Of a DNA stretch of 35,356 nucleotides, positions 17,574 through 32,367 are shown piece after piece. Under the pieces are notes generated by a model. That model was not told where the DNA came from. It ran no database searches and saw only the letters and a program-made list of their open reading frames with translations. How positions within the stretch are numbered: the stretch's first letter is position 1; each line of letters begins with the position of its first letter. The position numbers were made by a program, and so were the translations under genes. Source of the DNA: Geobacteraceae bacterium (GTDB lineage Bacteria > Desulfobacterota > Desulfuromonadia > Geobacterales > Geobacteraceae); the NCBI GenBank assembly GCA_009773645.1, contig WSYB01000057.1, positions 1,760-37,115 of the forward strand, given 5' to 3'.

Positions 17574-20500
17574 TTGCCCACATCCCCCGCCAAAATTGCA
17601 CCTCCGCGACTGTCGGAAGTATTTCCCCGCGAGAGACTCTTCCATCTGTTGGATCAAGCCTCTGCAAGGCCGCTCATATGGATTGCCGCGCCACCCGGTG
17701 CCGGCAAGACCACCCTGGTATCCAGTTACCTCCGTGTCCGCAACCTCCCCAGTCTCTGGTACCAAGTGGATGAGGGCGACGGAGATATCGCCACCTTTTT
17801 CTATTACCTGGGGATGGCGGCAATTAAGGCCGCCCCCCGGTACCGTCAGCCGCTCCCCCTGTTCACTCCCGAATATCTCCACGGTGCCTCCACCTTTGCC
17901 AGCCGGTTTTTTGAAAAGCTTTTCAGCCGCTTGAAGCCCCCCTGCGCGATTGTTTTCGACAACTACCAGGAGGCGCCTGTTGATTCGCCGTTTCAAGAGG
18001 TGATCTGCCAGGGATTACGGGTAATCCCGCCGGGGGTAAGCGTCATCATCATCAGCCGCGGCGCACCGCCCGCAAGCCTGGCCCGCCTGAAAGCGAGCCG
18101 CCAGATGGCGATCCTGGGGTGGCGGGAACTCAGGCTGACCATGGAGGAGACGGCGGGAATCGTGGCCCTTCAGAGCCGATGTGATGTTCCGGCGGGAACC
18201 GTGCAACGCATGCAGGAGATGACACAGGGATGGGCCACCGGCGTGGTGCTTATGGTGGAAAGCGGGAATTCGGGAGAAGCACGGCTGAACCTGGCGGAAA
18301 AGACCGATCCGGCGGAGGTCTTCGACTACTTCGCCGGAGAAATACTGGCCAAGACCGATCGGGAAACGCGAGACTTCCTTCTCAAAACATCGTTGCTCCA
18401 CGATATCGTCCCGCGGGCAGCCGCAGAACTGACCGGCAGTGGGGCGGTGGAGCGGATACTCGACCGCCTTGACCGGAACAACTATTTCACTCACCGCCTT
18501 GCGGGTCCTGAGCCGGTCTACCGGTACCACCCCCTGTTTCGCGCATTTCTCCTTTCACGGGCAAACGACGCATTCGGGAAAGCGGAGATTGCCGCGCTTA
18601 AGCGGAAGGCCGCGGCCCTACTGGAAGAATCGGGACGGATCGAGGACGCCGCGGTTCTTCTGCGCGACACGGGGGATTGGAAGGCGCTGGCTGGGTTGGT
18701 CCTGGGTAACGCACAGATCCTCATGGCCCAGGGAAGGAGCAAAACCCTCCTGGAATGGCTAGAGAGCATTCCAATGGAAATCGTGGAGCATACCCCCTGG
18801 CTCCTTTTATGGCTGGCTGTCTCGCAGCTCCCCTTTGCGCCGGCCGAGAGCCGTGAGCTTTCCGAGCGGGCGTTTTCATTGTTCGACTCTTCGGATGACG
18901 CCGCCGGCCTCTTTCTCTCATGGTCGGCGGTCGTAGACACCTTCCTCTTCGAGTGGAACGACTTCAGCCGGCTGGATCGCTGGATAGACTGGCTGGACGA
19001 ACGCCTGCGCGAGAACCCCTCATTCCCGTCACCGGAAATCGCTGCGCGCGTCGCTTCCGGCATGGCGGGCGCCCTGGTCCTGAGCAGGCCCCATCATTCG
19101 GACATCGGCACGTGGGCGGAGCGGGCGGTGTCCCTGACCCGGCAAAGCCCGGACATGCAACTCCGCATGCAGGCCTTGGTCAACTGCTTCAACTACCATC
19201 TCTGGAAGGGGGATATCGCCCGGAGCGGAACGGTGCTCCGGGAAATGGGAGTGGTTGCCCGTTTTCCGGACGCCTCACCATTAGCGGTTATCACCTGGAA
19301 GTTGACGGAAGCGTTGATGTGCAACTGGTCGGAGGCCGATTCCGACACGTCCCGGCGGCTGACGGCTGAGGCGCTGGAAATTGCCGGATCAAGCGGCGTG
19401 CACGTCTGGGACCACTTTCTTTTCGCCCAGGGAGTTTACGCTGCGCTGACCAGTGGGGATACGGCGGCTGCCAATGAGTTCCTTCAGATGATGGGGGCCA
19501 CCCGGCAGAGTTCCCGGGGCTTTGGCTTTTGTCTTCATAACCTTCTCCTTGCCTGGTATGATCTCCAGACGGGGAATGTCCTCCGTGCCGTCGTCCATGG
19601 GGAAACAGCCTTATCGTCTGCCGTGTCGGCGGGGGGGCCTTCTTCTGAAATGCTCTGCCGCTACGTGATGGCGCAGGTGCTCCATGGAGCCGGGGAGTTC
19701 AACAGGGCGGAGGAGGAGCTTGCACTTGCGGCTAAGGCTGCCGGCCGCATGAACAGCTTAAGTATCCAGTTCATGTGCCTTCTGGCGTCAGCACAGTTCG
19801 CCCTGGATCGGGGGGATGAAGCTGCCGGCCTGGAGTTCCTGGGAAGAGGCATGGCGCTGGGGCGACGGCAAAGGTATGTGAACATGTTCTGGTGGTGGCA
19901 GGCGGGCGTCATGACGCGTCTCTGCCTGAAGGCACTGGAAGTCGGAATAGAGGTCGATTATGTGTGCGAGCTTGTCCGGAAGCGCAATCTGACGCCCGAT
20001 GCGCCGCCGGTGCATGTTGAAGGCTGGCCATGGCCGTTGAAGATTTACACCCTGGGCCGGTTTGAGATAGTAAAGGATGGAAAGCCGGTGGAATTCTCAG
20101 GTAAGGTGCAGCAGAAACCCCTTGCCATGCTGAAGGCGCTCATCGCCCTTGGGGGGCGGAAGGTGAGCGAAGAACGGCTGTCCGATCTCCTCTGGCCCAA
20201 CGCCGATGGCACCACGGCGTGCACTGCTTTCAATACCACCCTGCACCGCCTGCGCCGCCTGCTGGGAAACGACAGGGTCGTTCAGATGAGTGACGGGAAA
20301 ATTACGCTCAATCCCCGTTATTGCTGGGTGGATGCGTGGGCGTTCCAGAGGGTGTGCAGAGAGGTTGAAGCGCTTCGAAAAGAAGGGGCGACGGGCAAGA
20401 ATCCATCAGACCTCATTCGGCTTGCCGAAAAGGCGCTGGCCCTCTATCTCGCTCATTTCCTGGCAGGAGATGCCGAATGCCATTGGGCTATCTCTCTGCG

Positions 20501-20789
20501 GGAACGTTTGCGAAGCAGGTTCATCCACCTCGTCGGCAGGGTGGGGCATTACTGGGAAGGAACCGGCAAGTGGCTCAAGGCCGCGGAGTGTTATCAAAAG
20601 GGACTGGAGACGGACGACCTTACTGAAGAATTCTACCAGCGCCTCATGGTCTGCTATCAACACATGGGGAAGCGCGCCGAGGCGCTGGCGGTCTACAATC
20701 GCTGCTGTACCACCCTTTCCGCCGCGTGCGGCATTCCCCCCTCCCCCAAAACCAGGGCCATCCATAAATCGATAACAGCCTCTCAATAA
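17574..20789 (+). CDS. MalT-like STAND ATPase with C-terminal SARP/BTAD DNA-binding module
   Basis: A 1071-residue cytoplasmic regulator. The N-terminus PPRLSEVFPRERLFHLLD and the P-loop APPGAGKTTL (39-48) are MalT-like. A Walker-B-like IVFDNYQEAP follows, and the signature YRYHPLFRAFLLSRA closes the NTPase part near residue 325. Residues about 340-800 are helical repeats. From about residue 822 an OmpR-type winged helix (PLKIYTLGRFEIVKDGKPVE, RLSDLLWP, FNTTLHRLRRLLG) and a bacterial transcriptional-activation domain end the protein. True MalT instead ends in a LuxR-type helix. The start is TTG 17574 with TAGGAACGG 5 bases before it; no in-frame ATG lies close by. Ligand and targets are unknown; both flanking gene sets are on the other strand. 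Confidence 0.88.
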   Translation: MPTSPAKIAPPRLSEVFPRERLFHLLDQASARPLIWIAAPPGAGKTTLVSSYLRVRNLPSLWYQVDEGDGDIATFFYYLGMAAIKAAPRYRQPLPLFTPEYLHGASTFASRFFEKLFSRLKPPCAIVFDNYQEAPVDSPFQEVICQGLRVIPPGVSVIIISRGAPPASLARLKASRQMAILGWRELRLTMEETAGIVALQSRCDVPAGTVQRMQEMTQGWATGVVLMVESGNSGEARLNLAEKTDPAEVFDYFAGEILAKTDRETRDFLLKTSLLHDIVPRAAAELTGSGAVERILDRLDRNNYFTHRLAGPEPVYRYHPLFRAFLLSRANDAFGKAEIAALKRKAAALLEESGRIEDAAVLLRDTGDWKALAGLVLGNAQILMAQGRSKTLLEWLESIPMEIVEHTPWLLLWLAVSQLPFAPAESRELSERAFSLFDSSDDAAGLFLSWSAVVDTFLFEWNDFSRLDRWIDWLDERLRENPSFPSPEIAARVASGMAGALVLSRPHHSDIGTWAERAVSLTRQSPDMQLRMQALVNCFNYHLWKGDIARSGTVLREMGVVARFPDASPLAVITWKLTEALMCNWSEADSDTSRRLTAEALEIAGSSGVHVWDHFLFAQGVYAALTSGDTAAANEFLQMMGATRQSSRGFGFCLHNLLLAWYDLQTGNVLRAVVHGETALSSAVSAGGPSSEMLCRYVMAQVLHGAGEFNRAEEELALAAKAAGRMNSLSIQFMCLLASAQFALDRGDEAAGLEFLGRGMALGRRQRYVNMFWWWQAGVMTRLCLKALEVGIEVDYVCELVRKRNLTPDAPPVHVEGWPWPLKIYTLGRFEIVKDGKPVEFSGKVQQKPLAMLKALIALGGRKVSEERLSDLLWPNADGTTACTAFNTTLHRLRRLLGNDRVVQMSDGKITLNPRYCWVDAWAFQRVCREVEALRKEGATGKNPSDLIRLAEKALALYLAHFLAGDAECHWAISLRERLRSRFIHLVGRVGHYWEGTGKWLKAAECYQKGLETDDLTEEFYQRLMVCYQHMGKRAEALAVYNRCCTTLSAACGIPPSPKTRAIHKSITASQ

Positions 20790-20818: not shown

Positions 20819-22049
20819 TCACCGCCTTACCACGTGCACGGCGCAGGAAATACACGGGTCGCAGGCGCGAACGAGGATCTCCAGCTCCCGTTTCATTTCC
20901 CACTCATCCGCTCCTTCCAGCGACCGGGCGAGGTCCAGAAGGTTGCGCTCCATGGGGAGATGATTGATGGCGGTGGGGGTAATGACGTCGGCGGCAGTGC
21001 AGAGGCCGCGACCATCGAAGCTGTAGCTGTGGATGAGGACAGATTTTTTCAGGCTTTTCCCGCTCGAAACCCCTGTCGAGGAGGATATCGATGATCTCCA
21101 GGGAACGTTCCACTGCGTGGATGAGCTCCACCGACTGGGCGAGGTTGTTGGCGCGGATATCGGCGCCGACGATCCTGTCGCGGCATCTTTCGAAGGCCGC
21201 CGCTGCCCTGGGGGCGAGCTCCATGCCGAGGTTGAGCCTTGCCAGCGCCCCTACGGTCACCGACTTCCCGTTGACGAGGCTCTTCTTGGCATGGGTGTCC
21301 GGTGACACCTCTTCCCGGAACGCACTCCGGTAATCGTCAACGGAGAAACCTTCCCCGTCACCGGTTATCAGTCGCTCTCCGAAGAGGGGAGGGGCGGAAC
21401 CGGGCTCGACAGCCATGAAAGAGGAGGGCGAGAGGGCAGAACAGGGTGAGGTAAAGGTGGAGAAGAGTTCAAGAGCATTTGCCGCATCGGGGAGGATCGC
21501 CTCAAGAGCCTCCTTGAGTTTCAGAAGCCCTTCACGGCCGACCGGCTTACCCATGCCGCCGGGGATTAAGGTGACCGGGTGGATGAGTCGCCCGCCGACG
21601 GTCTCCTGGATCAGGTTCCCCGCCGCCTTGATCCGGAGCCCCCGCTTCAGCTCTTCCGGAGCCTTTTCCGCCAGGTCTGTGAAGCCGCAGACGCCGAAGA
21701 GATCGGGGAGGACGAGGCAGAAGAGGTGGAGGGCGTGGCTCTGGATGTGGCCGCCGTTGAGGATGAGTTCCCGATGGAGCTGCGCCTGTTCGGTTACCCC
21801 AATGCCGAGGGCCTTCTCGACGGCCATGAGCGATGTAATCCGGTGGACCGAAGAGCAGAGGGAGCAGATGCGGCAGATGATGGCAGGAACTTCCTCAAAG
21901 CCTTTTCCCACAAGGAGGGCCTCGAAAAGCCGGGGCGATTCCGTGAGAGTGAGCCGCACCCCCTCGACCCTCTTCCCGTCCAGGAAAACGGAGACCCGAC
22001 CGTGCCCCTCGACACGGGTCAGCGGCCGTATGTCAATGACGCTGCTCAT
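20819..22049 (-). CDS. hydA: [NiFe] hydrogenase large (alpha) subunit, frameshifted near the C-terminus
   Basis: The frame from ATG 22049 encodes a group 3-type hydrogenase large subunit with the first nickel motif RICSLCSSVH (residues 60-69) and the N-terminus RPLTRVEGHGRVSVF. This frame leaves the family near 21044-21075 and stops at 20904 after unrelated basic sequence. One frame over, the protein resumes (SVLIHSYSFDGRG, DVITPTAINHLPMERNLL) and ends RACDPCISCAVHVVRR at TGA 20821-20819, the required second nickel motif. One extra base is needed, and a run of six A (coding strand, 21049-21044) is a candidate site. Sequencing error, a true mutation or transcript slippage are all possible. The usual EAPRG motif before this point is not recognisable. 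Last gene of hydBGDA. Confidence 0.85.
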
Positions 22050-22788
22050 AATTCCACTCCGGGCAGAAACGACGCATCCGGCTGATAATCTCCTCGCGCG
22101 GGAACCCCTTCTGCATGAGGAGCTCCATTTCAGAAGCGACGTTGGCCTCTGCCACCGGGCCGCGGCACCCCTCGCAGACAATGCCGGCCGCAGGACATCG
22201 TGCGCCGCACCCGGCCTGGATGAGGGGCCCGAGGCAGAGTTCGTTGTCCTCGACGAGGAGACAGCGGTTTTCCCGGTTCCGGCACTCGGTGCAGACCGGA
22301 TAGATGGGGAATACCGGGAAGGATCCCCTCAGAAGGGAGGAGAGGAGAGCCAGGAGCTCATCTTTCTCCGGCGGACAGCCGGGGATGGCAAAGTCGACCG
22401 TAACGAAGAAATGAAACGGTTCCGGGTTGAAGGTCAGCACCTCTCCGGCGACGTCGTGGTAGACGATCTTCGTGAGTTCAGTCCGTGATTCATGGTTCTT
22501 CATGGCGGCGACACCACCCCAGAGGGCGCAGGTGCCGAAAGCGACTAGGAAGCGGCTCCTGCTCCTCAAATGGAGCAGCGTCTCCAGGTCATCGGGGGTA
22601 GAGACGGCCCCCTCCACGATTGCCACATCGACCGACGCGCACTCATCACCCCCGGAGATCCCCATGGGGAAGAAGATGAGATCAAAGCAACCGGCCACTT
22701 CCGGCAGTTCCGCCTCGCAGTTGAGGAGGGTGAGCTGGCACCCGGAGCAGGCGGTGAGCCCCGCTATGGCCATGGTCGGCTTCTTCAT
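22033..22788 (-). CDS. hydD: [NiFe] hydrogenase small (delta) subunit
   Basis: A 251-residue iron-sulfur subunit that carries electrons from the NiFe site. The proximal-cluster motif GLTACSGCQLTLLNCE is at residues 9-24, with FGTCALWGGVAAM and IPGCPPEKDE further on. Cysteines for the other clusters are in YPVCTECRNRENRC, CLGPLIQAGCGARCP and VCEGCRGP. No twin-arginine signal peptide, as expected for a cytoplasmic group 3 enzyme. ATG 22788 overlaps the stop of the gamma gene as ATGA, and the gene runs 17 bases into the alpha gene, so the operon is tightly coupled. Confidence 0.92.
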   Translation of the reverse strand: MKKPTMAIAGLTACSGCQLTLLNCEAELPEVAGCFDLIFFPMGISGGDECASVDVAIVEGAVSTPDDLETLLHLRSRSRFLVAFGTCALWGGVAAMKNHESRTELTKIVYHDVAGEVLTFNPEPFHFFVTVDFAIPGCPPEKDELLALLSSLLRGSFPVFPIYPVCTECRNRENRCLLVEDNELCLGPLIQAGCGARCPAAGIVCEGCRGPVAEANVASEMELLMQKGFPREEIISRMRRFCPEWNYEQRH

Positions 22789-23624
22789 ATCACCCCCGGT
22801 ATCTCCTTGATCCTGTCGTAGCTGAAGACCGGGCCGTCGGTGCAGCAGAAAAAGTCGCCGACTGCGCAGTGGCAACAGAGCCCGATGCCGCACTTCATGC
22901 GCCGCTCCAGGGAGAGGAATATCCGGTTTTCCGGGAAATCCAGCCCGAGAAGTTCGGTGATCAGGCAGCGGTAAAGTGCCGGGGGGCCGCAGACGGCGGC
23001 GTAGGTTTGATCGAGACGGAGCTTGATCCCCATGAGCAGGCCGGGGAGGAGTCCGACCCTGCAGACGGGTCCTCCGGCCGGCTCTTCGGTGAGGAAGTCG
23101 ACGGTCAGCATAAGGCGGATGTCCCTGCGGCAGGCAAGCTCCGCCAGTTCGTCGCGGAAGAGGATCGCCGACGGTTCCCGGGCGCCGTACATGAGGGTGA
23201 TGGCGCCGTACTCCTCCCGATGTTCCAGGAAATAGTGGAAGAGAGAGCGAAGCGGAGCGATGCCGAGCCCGCCGGCGAGGAGAATGACGTCGTTCCCCCT
23301 CATCCTCTCCACGGGGAAGCCTGTGCCGAAGGGACCGCGGACCGCGACCGGGTCCCCCGGCCGCAGATTGTGGAGGACGGCGGTCACATGCCCCGCCTTC
23401 CTGACACAGAGTTCCAACTCCCTTCCATGCCCAGGGGAACCCGCCAGGGAAATCGGGAATTCCCCCGCGGCGGGGACGGAGAGCTGGACGAACTGGCCGG
23501 GGGTGAAGGTGAACCCCTGCGCTTCCCCTTCTTTCAGGCCGAGCCGAAAGAAGGATGTGTCACCGGAGAGGGGGTGAACCTCGGTGATGGTTGCCATGGC
23601 AGGTATTGTTGTCATGTCGGTCAT
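22785..23624 (-). CDS. hydG: Hydrogenase gamma subunit (FAD/NAD(P)-binding, [2Fe-2S])
   Basis: About 279 residues of the ferredoxin-NADP reductase superfamily, the diaphorase part of sulfhydrogenase-type group 3b hydrogenases. FAD contact FTPGQFVQLSVP and FPISLAGSP, the nucleotide motif LAGGLGIAPLRSL, then AVCGPPALY, and a C-terminal [2Fe-2S] site MKCGIGLCCHCAVGDFFCC. It passes electrons between the beta subunit clusters and NAD(P)H. ATG 23624 (MTDMTTIPAMATITE) is chosen; the ribosome-binding site AAAGG is weak, and ATG 23597 (MATITEVHP) is an alternative. Confidence 0.9.
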   Translation of the reverse strand: MTDMTTIPAMATITEVHPLSGDTSFFRLGLKEGEAQGFTFTPGQFVQLSVPAAGEFPISLAGSPGHGRELELCVRKAGHVTAVLHNLRPGDPVAVRGPFGTGFPVERMRGNDVILLAGGLGIAPLRSLFHYFLEHREEYGAITLMYGAREPSAILFRDELAELACRRDIRLMLTVDFLTEEPAGGPVCRVGLLPGLLMGIKLRLDQTYAAVCGPPALYRCLITELLGLDFPENRIFLSLERRMKCGIGLCCHCAVGDFFCCTDGPVFSYDRIKEIPGVI

Positions 23625-23641
23625 TTTAAAACCTTTTTGGG

Positions 23642-23700
23642 GCCACGAATAGACACGAATGTTCACGAATAATATCAAAGCTCATTCGTGCAATTCGTGG
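23642..23700. repeat. CACGAAT-type inverted repeat in the hydB-hydG gap
   Basis: CCACGAAT, ACACGAAT and TTCACGAAT on the left face CATTCGTG and AATTCGTGG on the right, forming an imperfect inverted repeat that fills almost the entire gap between two hydrogenase genes. Similar in style to the ACGGATTT element at 11291-11422. Confidence 0.75.
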
Positions 23701-23717: not shown

Positions 23718-24707
23718 TTAGAGAATATTCGCTTTCTCCCGAAATAGTTCCATAAGGTCTATCTTCACCGGGCACACGTCACGGCAGCGGCCGCAGCCGA
23801 CGCACGAAACGATGCCGCGCATGGGGCCGAACCCTAGGTATTTGTGCTGAAAACGGTAACGGAATCGCTCTTCCCGTGTTTTACGGAAGTTGTGTCCCCC
23901 GGCCACCTCGCCATGGGACTTGAAAAGACAGTTGTCCCATTCGCGGAGGCGTTCGGCGGTTTCCCCGTCGAGTCTGCCACGTTCCTGCACGTCGAAGCAG
24001 TAGCAGGTGGGGCAACAGAGGGAACATGCGCCGCAGGAAAGGCAGCGGCCGGCAAAATCTTCCCAGAGGCGGCTTTCGGAAAATGTTTCACCGCGGGTTG
24101 CGGCCTGTAAGATGGTTTCTTCGATTTTGCATTCGCAGGGGACCGGGGAGGGGGGCTCCCGCGCCTCAAGGAGCACGGAAAGGCGGCGGATAATCTTTTT
24201 TCCCCGGGAACTGCCGGCTGAGAGGTAAAACCCCGCCTCTGTCCGGTGCATGAATATATCGAAGTTTTGCGGTTCAGCGGTGCCCATAGTGCCGCAGAAG
24301 CAGTATTCGTCGGGTTCGCAGGAAAGCCCTATCAGGGTAACGGCTTTGCGTCTTTTGACGAAAAGGGGGTCAGGCTGAGATTCCAGGAAAACCCTGTCCA
24401 GATAGGCAATCCCTGCCAGGTCGCAGGGATGAAGGCCGAAAAGAATGACCTTTTTGCCCGCTGCCTTGGTAAGCTGGTACCCCTTGACGGGCGAGTAGGT
24501 GAGGATTGCCTCTTTCGGGGGGAAGAAGTATTTTTTGGGGGGAATGAGGGTGCGGATACAGTCAAGCTGGATATCTGCCGGAGAGCAGATCGGCCGGAAG
24601 GCCATGACTCCGTCGTCGGTCAATACGGGGCCGTGAAGGTCGCCTGATGCGGCGAGCCCTTGCAGGAAGAGGGGGAAGGACTCATTTGACAGGAAGTTCT
24701 TTTGCAC
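23718..24707 (-). CDS. hydB: Hydrogenase beta subunit (2[4Fe-4S] electron-transfer protein)
   Basis: A 329-residue iron-sulfur subunit of group 3b hydrogenases. The N-terminal part has the family motifs PPKEAILTY and FGLHPCDLAGIAYLDRVF, then LSCEPDEYCFCGTMG. Two cluster-binding regions follow: GRCLSCGACSLCCPTCYCFD near residue 220 and VSCVGCGRCRDVCPVKIDLM near residue 300. The start is GTG 24707 with CGGGAAGAA upstream; no in-frame ATG lies near. It is the first gene of the order B-G-D-A, the same order as the Pyrococcus sulfhydrogenase I operon. A long hairpin element lies between it and the predicted promoter. Confidence 0.9.
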   Translation of the reverse strand: MQKNFLSNESFPLFLQGLAASGDLHGPVLTDDGVMAFRPICSPADIQLDCIRTLIPPKKYFFPPKEAILTYSPVKGYQLTKAAGKKVILFGLHPCDLAGIAYLDRVFLESQPDPLFVKRRKAVTLIGLSCEPDEYCFCGTMGTAEPQNFDIFMHRTEAGFYLSAGSSRGKKIIRRLSVLLEAREPPSPVPCECKIEETILQAATRGETFSESRLWEDFAGRCLSCGACSLCCPTCYCFDVQERGRLDGETAERLREWDNCLFKSHGEVAGGHNFRKTREERFRYRFQHKYLGFGPMRGIVSCVGCGRCRDVCPVKIDLMELFREKANIL

Positions 24708-31101: not shown

Positions 31102-32367
31102 ATGGATATTCTAGCCCTCAACTGCGGCAGCTCATCGGTCAAATATCAGTTGTTCGATTGGGATAAAAAAGAGGTTATTGCAAAGGGGATGGTGGAGAGG
31201 GTCATCATCGGCGATTCCTTCATTATCCACGAGGTGCCGGGACGCGAAACCTACCGGGAAGAGTCGGATTGCCCGGACCATCAGGTGGCGATCAATCTCA
31301 TCACCAAGACCCTGACCGACCCGGTCCACGGTGTGCTCAAGGACATCAATCAGATCTCTGCCGTTGGCCACAGGGTTGTGCACGGCGGAGAAAAGTTTAC
31401 CCGTTCGGTCCTGATCGACGAGCAGGTGTTGGACGCCGTAAAGGAAGTGCAACATCTGGCGCCACTTCACAACCCGCCGAACATCGCAGGTATTGAGGCT
31501 GCCCAGGCGTTGCTCCCCAATGTTCCGCAGGTGGCCATCTTCGATACCGCCTTCCACCAGACCATGCCCGAACATGCGTATCTTTATCCTCTGCCGTACG
31601 ATTGGTATGAAAAATACGGAGTGCGCCGCTATGGTTTTCACGGCACTTCCCACCTCTATGTTTCGAAAAGGGCGGCGGCCTTGCTCGGAAAGCCTCCCAG
31701 GGAGTGCAGTATAATCACCATGCATATCGGCAACGGCGTGTCGCATTGTGCTATCAAAAACGGTGTTTCGGTAGATACCAGCATGGGGCTTACCCCGCTG
31801 GAAGGTGCAGTGATGGGGACCCGGTGCGGAGACATAGACCCTGCAATCCCCGCTTTCATGATGCAGAAAGAGAACCTTTCAGCCAAGGAGATTGACAGCA
31901 TCCTCAACAAAAAGAGCGGGGTGTTGGGGCTCACCGGCCGTTTCACCGATCGTCGTGACGTGATAGAACATGCCGCCAACGGCGACAAGCTGTGCAAGCT
32001 CGCCCTTGATATCGAGGCATACCGCTTGAGAAAGTATATCGGCTCCTATATGGCCGCCGTGGGCAGACTTGATGCTGTAGTCTTTACCGCAGGAGTAGGG
32101 GAGATGGGGTGGCCGATCCGGGAGAAGACCGTCGAGGGGCTGGAGCATCTGGGGATCATCCTGGACCGGGATAGGAACAAGGGGGCCATGACCAGGAAAC
32201 GGGAAAGCCTCATCACTACGGACGATTCGCCGGTAAAGGTCTATGTTATCCCCACCGACGAGGAACTGGTCTTTACTGAGGATGTGGCGGCTATCCTGGC
32301 GGGGACCTATACCGATCACATGCAGTTCGAGTATTCGTTCGCACGCCCTGAGTTTGAACGCAAGTGA
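31102..32367 (+). CDS. ackA: Acetate kinase
   Basis: A 421-residue enzyme that interconverts acetate + ATP and acetyl phosphate + ADP. The N-terminal signature LALNCGSSSVKYQLFDW is at residues 4-20, and VGHRVVHGGEKF, FHGTSHLYVS, HIGNGVSHCAIKNG, DTSMGLTPLEGAVMGTRCGD and FTAGVGEMGWPIRE follow as expected. AGGAGGAAATTA precedes the ATG. Its partner pta lies downstream on the other strand, converging on it. In Geobacter-type metabolism this pair links acetate to acetyl-CoA. The stop codon is inside the first of three GTGAAAA copies (32364-32384). Confidence 0.97.
   Translation: MDILALNCGSSSVKYQLFDWDKKEVIAKGMVERVIIGDSFIIHEVPGRETYREESDCPDHQVAINLITKTLTDPVHGVLKDINQISAVGHRVVHGGEKFTRSVLIDEQVLDAVKEVQHLAPLHNPPNIAGIEAAQALLPNVPQVAIFDTAFHQTMPEHAYLYPLPYDWYEKYGVRRYGFHGTSHLYVSKRAAALLGKPPRECSIITMHIGNGVSHCAIKNGVSVDTSMGLTPLEGAVMGTRCGDIDPAIPAFMMQKENLSAKEIDSILNKKSGVLGLTGRFTDRRDVIEHAANGDKLCKLALDIEAYRLRKYIGSYMAAVGRLDAVVFTAGVGEMGWPIREKTVEGLEHLGIILDRDRNKGAMTRKRESLITTDDSPVKVYVIPTDEELVFTEDVAAILAGTYTDHMQFEYSFARPEFERK

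Follow-up and report, generated by a model that had tools for sequence, protein, structure and literature searches.

An apparent 47-nucleotide out-of-frame deletion interrupts the large-subunit gene of a group 3b-like NiFe hydrogenase operon in a Geobacteraceae draft genome, probably yielding a recent pseudogene

The closest described counterparts of the operon analysed here are the soluble hydrogenases I of Pyrococcus and Thermococcus (sulfhydrogenase HydBGDA; PDB 9nez and 5yxy, which we take to come from these genera and to belong to group 3b), with which it shares all four subunit types, beta, gamma, delta and alpha. In Escherichia coli Hyd-2, an arginine described as strictly conserved (R479) is located over the metals, and when it is replaced by lysine, H2 oxidation drops to 2-10% and proton reduction to 0.4-2% (PMC10430524). 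The Ehr (Ech-related) complex of Geobacter is described as having no NiFe-binding centre, and its authors expect drift under relaxed selection (PMC13194489). The product of the gene described below would likewise belong to a hydrogenase-type complex without a catalytic NiFe site, but Ehr is another complex and serves as an analogy only; here, a catalytic-type subunit has been broken by a deletion. A frame-shifting lesion from the same genus is a single-base deletion in a catalase gene region of Geobacter sulfurreducens KN400 (PMC3495685). In the sections consulted of three papers (PMC13194489, PMC3495685, PMC2996986), no mention of the present large-subunit break was found, which is no proof of its absence from print.

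The window (the whole stretch of DNA that was analysed, 35,356 nt, G000:C25:1760-37115) belongs to a draft assembly of 4.74 Mb in 78 contigs. Its minus strand carries a four-gene operon in the order beta-gamma-delta-alpha, in which the last gene, encoding the NiFe hydrogenase large subunit, is interrupted and runs from 22049 to 20819. The features are as follows, with the evidence in brackets:

23718..24707, minus strand: intact 4Fe-4S (beta) subunit, encoded by the first gene of the operon (profile and relative matches)
22785..23678, minus strand: diaphorase (gamma) subunit with FAD and NAD binding, intact (profile and relative matches)
22033..22893, minus strand: hydrogenase small (delta) subunit, intact; open reading frame from GTG, probable ATG inside (PF01058; ShyD/HydD models below cut-off)
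20819..22049, minus strand: NiFe hydrogenase large (alpha) subunit, group 3b-like, interrupted (translations, relatives, NCBIfam ShyA/HydA below cut-off, PDB matches)
21042..22049, minus strand: in-frame 5' part of alpha; 336 codons that include RVEG and RICSLCSSVH and end in ...EREKPEKI (translation)
21044..21049, minus strand: A6 run in the sense strand, T6 on the plus strand, at the junction (sequence)
21041..21042, minus strand: junction of the inferred 47-nt deletion, EAPRG loop removed, placed to within a few nucleotides (shortfall against 16 of 20 relatives; HMM frame change at 21040)
20904..21041, minus strand: out-of-frame tail past the junction, 45 codons, then a stop (translation)
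20819..21040, minus strand: 3' part of alpha in the shifted frame, VLIHSYSFDGRGLC...RACDPCISCAVHVVRR, then a stop (translation)

The beta (4Fe-4S), gamma (FAD/NAD), delta (small) and alpha (large) gene types occur together, which is the mark of a group 3b operon, and by predicted subunit types the operon is closest to the soluble sulfhydrogenase I kind. The best NCBIfam models for the alpha subunit are ShyA and HydA; all four subunits score below the Shy/Hyd equivalog cut-offs, and the operon is therefore a relative of soluble hydrogenase I and not that equivalog. The large subunits of the relatives L052 and L050 also fall below these cut-offs. The 5' part of the window's alpha gene matches residues 6-324 of the sulfhydrogenase 1 alpha chain (9nez), and the intact ortholog in genome G020 aligns to the end of 9nez, including EAPRG and DPCISC. 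In contrast to soluble hydrogenase I, the large subunit of the window has no EAPRG loop and terminates in a wrong frame.

Judged from their predicted sequences, the partner subunits beta, gamma and delta are intact. Seven other loci were used to define invariant positions, of which 2 of 95 in delta, 4 of 95 in gamma and 7 of 97 in beta differ in the window; the corresponding counts for the seven loci themselves are 3-12, 0-8 and 1-8. The decayed locus L053 was omitted from this test. The delta subunit is 60-74% identical to the seven loci that have a full-length match. Convergent with the operon, on the plus strand (17574-20789), lies a gene whose 1071-residue product has a BTAD domain and, below cut-off, weak AAA matches; it is possibly a regulator.

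The alpha gene starts with an ATG whose first base is 22049 and where the sequence reads MSSVIDIRPLTRVEGHG, and the stop of its shifted 3' part occupies 20819-20821. It was aligned with 20 of 29 loci of relatives from 37 other genomes (L009-L028, with L029-L037 left out); identity over the matched stretch reaches 50% or more in 14 of the 20 and falls to 33-34% in the most distant. From the helix AVERSLEI, which precedes the break, to LIHSY the distance is 79 nt in the window. Of the 20 aligned relatives, 16 (one of which, L018, is itself broken elsewhere) have 126 nt there, and the remaining four have 129, 123, 120 and 117 nt. By the usual comparison, the window gene is thus 47 nt short at 21041/21042. 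The flanks align without gaps (KPEKI against KPPAI in G011, and VLIHSYSFDGRGLC against TLIHSYSFDGRGLC), and the alignment identifies the missing stretch as 15 codons and 2 nt, namely the codons for APRKGxGTxxxEAPR and two bases of the glycine codon that follows. EAPRG is present in all 20 aligned relatives, in one of them as EVPRG, and the loop falls inside the gap of the window. A gene-grammar HMM that had been trained without the window placed a single in-gene frame change in the whole window, at 21040, at each of the costs 18, 14 and 11. Between 20980 and 21120 no direct repeats of at least 8 nt were found; two inverted pairs are present, a 9-nt pair and an imperfect palindrome of 13 nt, and the DNA at the junction folds no better than shuffled sequences (z 0.95). 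No deletion mechanism follows from these features.

The initial annotation had described a large subunit broken by a +1 frameshift ahead of its second nickel motif and hence unable, as encoded, to hold the NiFe centre. The break itself is borne out. The N-terminal RxCxxC nickel motif, RICSLCSSVH, is in frame; the C-terminal DPCxxCxxH motif, DPCISCAVH, is encoded on the same minus strand (the initial annotation had named no strand) but only in another frame, together with the whole C-terminal part VLIHSYSF...DPCISCAVHVVRR; and the EAPRG loop with its conserved arginine (presumably the counterpart of R479 in Hyd-2) is absent from both frames, as had been noticed. The PF00374 match to the large subunit (54.5 bits) covers the N-terminal stretch only, and the predicted protein is not a member of the functional PF00374 family, since the second nickel motif is out of frame and the EAPRG loop is absent. 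The proposed cause, on the other hand, does not stand. The A6 run at 21044-21049 exists, and owing to its position at the junction the removal of one base would align the frames of the two motifs by arithmetic, but about 16 residues would still be missing. One base fewer would therefore not turn the gene into an ordinary intact hydA, as the initial annotation had expected, because the stretch APRKGxGTxxxEAPRG would remain absent. Its hint at more change than one base has proved apt, in the form of a net loss of 47 nt, and the comparison with orthologous genes that it had proposed confirmed the break and assigned it another cause, the shortfall against 16 of 20 relatives. A single-base indel or slippage at the A6 run is thereby ruled out as the lesion, given that neither slippage nor a corrected homopolymer returns the missing stretch.

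The best explanation, to which we assign a probability of about 0.72, is that the locus is the recently inactivated alpha gene of a cytoplasmic, group 3b-like, NAD(P)-linked NiFe hydrogenase and that it was inactivated by one out-of-frame 47-nt deletion. It is probably an ordinary and recent hydrogenase pseudogene: compared with its orthologs an essential part has been lost, including the EAPRG codons, and the frame is broken. The deletion would have removed the codons for APRKGxGTxxxEAPR together with two further bases, and translation would then run through 45 wrong residues, the last ones of the 381 codons that are open from the ATG, to a stop ahead of the second CxxC nickel motif. A product that retains only two of the four nickel-binding cysteines and has neither the arginine loop nor the C-terminal part should, from established hydrogenase chemistry, not assemble an active NiFe site. 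The hydrogenase would be dead, and beta, gamma and delta would be relics that have not had time to decay; as these three genes are still intact, the loss is probably recent. The tempting reading of the locus as a homopolymer frameshift with possible recoding is thus corrected to a loss of active-site codons, and the locus should neither be labelled a functional group 3b hydrogenase in annotations nor serve as evidence of H2 metabolism.

The age of the break was also addressed by substitutions at positions that are invariant in 13 intact relatives (the broken L018 and the more distant L023-L028 were left out). The alpha gene of the window has changed at 0 of 77 such positions before the junction and at 3 of 27 after it (A29P, D33N and Y60C, numbered within the 3' part; one-sided Fisher test 0.016, with small numbers). 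When each of the 13 relatives was left out in turn, no changes after the junction were found in nine and one change in three, and the intact L019 has changed at 4 of 31 positions in the same 3' part, so that 3 of 27 alone proves nothing. The substitutions after the junction are suggestive of some age of the break, and no more than that.

An assembly or consensus fault, by which the organism would possess an intact gene and only the draft would have lost 47 nt, is unlikely but deserves serious consideration. The assembly is a draft in 78 contigs, and it contains a second hydrogenase large-subunit gene with a shortfall of similar size (C43:9137-10614; L002 and L055). This gene is split between frames, between ENYQ and KGVLGPYEAS, and lacks 43 nt in all but one of 13 comparisons, the exception giving 55 nt; the missing residues are AVVPSTWNASPRDE in its nearer relatives, and by eye its 3' part is well conserved and undecayed. 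The comparison comprised 20 fetched genes and the genome's own copy on C37, and a distance was obtained for 13 of these 21, whereas in the other eight the longest open frame was the wrong one or the motif was unmatched. At least 65 PF00374 matches span positions 1-508 in one open frame (at least 64 in relatives and one, C37, in the genome itself), and among the matches listed the C43 gene is the only large subunit of its length class, which we take to be group 1, that is split between two frames. Other long partial matches are G032:C245 and four that start at the very beginning of their contigs, namely G013:C110, G002:C78, G002:C3 and G013:C109.

A fault of the assembly is further favoured by two additional frame breaks that look real in a 515-kb sample of the genome. 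One is located near 54935 of C43 (L073), in a gene that by eye resembles multicopper oxidases, near LWFN / LGDMMTVNWQYKPY; an attempt to size it gave only weak partial matches among the 37 relatives. The other lies near 97502 of C62 (L068), by eye within tandem acyl-carrier-protein-like repeats of a large gene, and could be an assembly fault in these repeats. Against a fault, a loss of 47 nt is in our judgement not the usual homopolymer error, and substitutions at invariant sites of the 3' part are not expected from one, although the intact L019 has as many. Control families in the same genome are not visibly broken: the RND family has 11 matches, all complete except two at contig ends; of the ABC family's 69, none contains a stop, 63 span 127 or more of the 137 positions, and the remaining six are weaker and partial. 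That these families are not riddled with breaks favours a true gene loss. With a frame-change penalty and coding runs of at least 90 nt required on both sides, the HMM called 3, 8 and 10 frame breaks in the 515 kb at costs 18, 14 and 11, against 1, 4 and 5 in 400 kb of the single-contig genome G020. Two of the three breaks at cost 18 are the hydrogenases that had led to the choice of those stretches, and these rates are low estimates, since only 30 of 80 simulated 47-nt deletions were found at cost 18. When the run-length filter was omitted, the 515 kb yielded 7 calls at cost 18 and 13 at cost 14, several of which look false by eye. Neither the RND and ABC families nor the frame-break rate relative to G020 supports an error-ridden assembly.

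If the assembly is right, the organism would have lost two H2 enzymes and would keep at least one intact large subunit. Contig C75 encodes a 506-residue homologue with RICGVC, EAPRG and DPCFSC. A hidden intact copy of the window's hydrogenase was searched for in the genome and not found: no further group 3b large subunit turned up, and the remaining matches show 31-32% identity. The pair of deletions is of modest interest: if both are real, the genome would capture hydrogenase loss under way in a single lineage, at a stage when the partner subunits have yet to decay.

Two further readings give the truncated protein a role of its own. It is very improbable that the truncated large subunit has been kept for a non-catalytic function together with the intact beta, gamma and delta subunits. 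The absence of changes at invariant positions before the junction, compared with three after it, would fit such a function, but the numbers are small, a recent break explains the same pattern, and the same truncation occurs in none of the 20 aligned relatives. Equally far-fetched is a composite reading, in which one lineage shut down two separate NiFe hydrogenases by independent out-of-frame deletions of nearly equal length (47 and 43 nt), both affecting the conserved region ahead of the C-terminal nickel motif, and the 5' part of the truncated group 3b alpha gene remained under selection in a non-hydrogenase role beside beta, gamma and delta. That programmed or transcriptional slippage at the A6 run yields a full-length protein can practically be dismissed. 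The position of the run and the alignment of both frames by the loss of one base would fit such slippage, but the product would still lack about 16 residues, including the EAPRG loop that every aligned relative encodes.

Recent inactivation of the alpha gene is also consistent with the distribution of the operon. Among 22 relatives of the same family, the large subunit is matched at 50% identity or higher in 13 and at 33% in G007, with weaker matches or none in the remaining eight; a scan of the contigs of named genomes gave one distant match, 28% identical. All four subunits are matched, at 46-74% identity, in L050, L051, L052, L054, L061, L062 and L063, group 3b-like operons of the same family or order whose large subunits, unlike that of the window, are intact. 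In G002 (L053, G002:C45) the orthologous operon is more decayed than that of the window: alpha has two stops and a piece in another frame, delta is in two pieces, only a fragment of gamma remains and beta has no match. Because several family members have no close match and one has a decayed copy, the group 3b operon looks dispensable in the family, as far as gene content can tell. Relaxed selection on a dispensable H2 enzyme would fit the loss, given that the operon has no close match in several family members, is decayed in one, and that the second large subunit of the genome is broken as well.

An acetate-kinase-like gene of the window (31102-32367, recognised by eye) is also matched in L051, L054 and the decayed L053. 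G011 (L049:8506-9969, G011:C10) carries an intact orphan group 3b large subunit, its partner subunits being unmatched in the 18 kb fetched; by eye, this orphan gene adjoins genes for a PIN-like protein and a ClpA/B-type AAA protein as well as an AbrB-like open reading frame.
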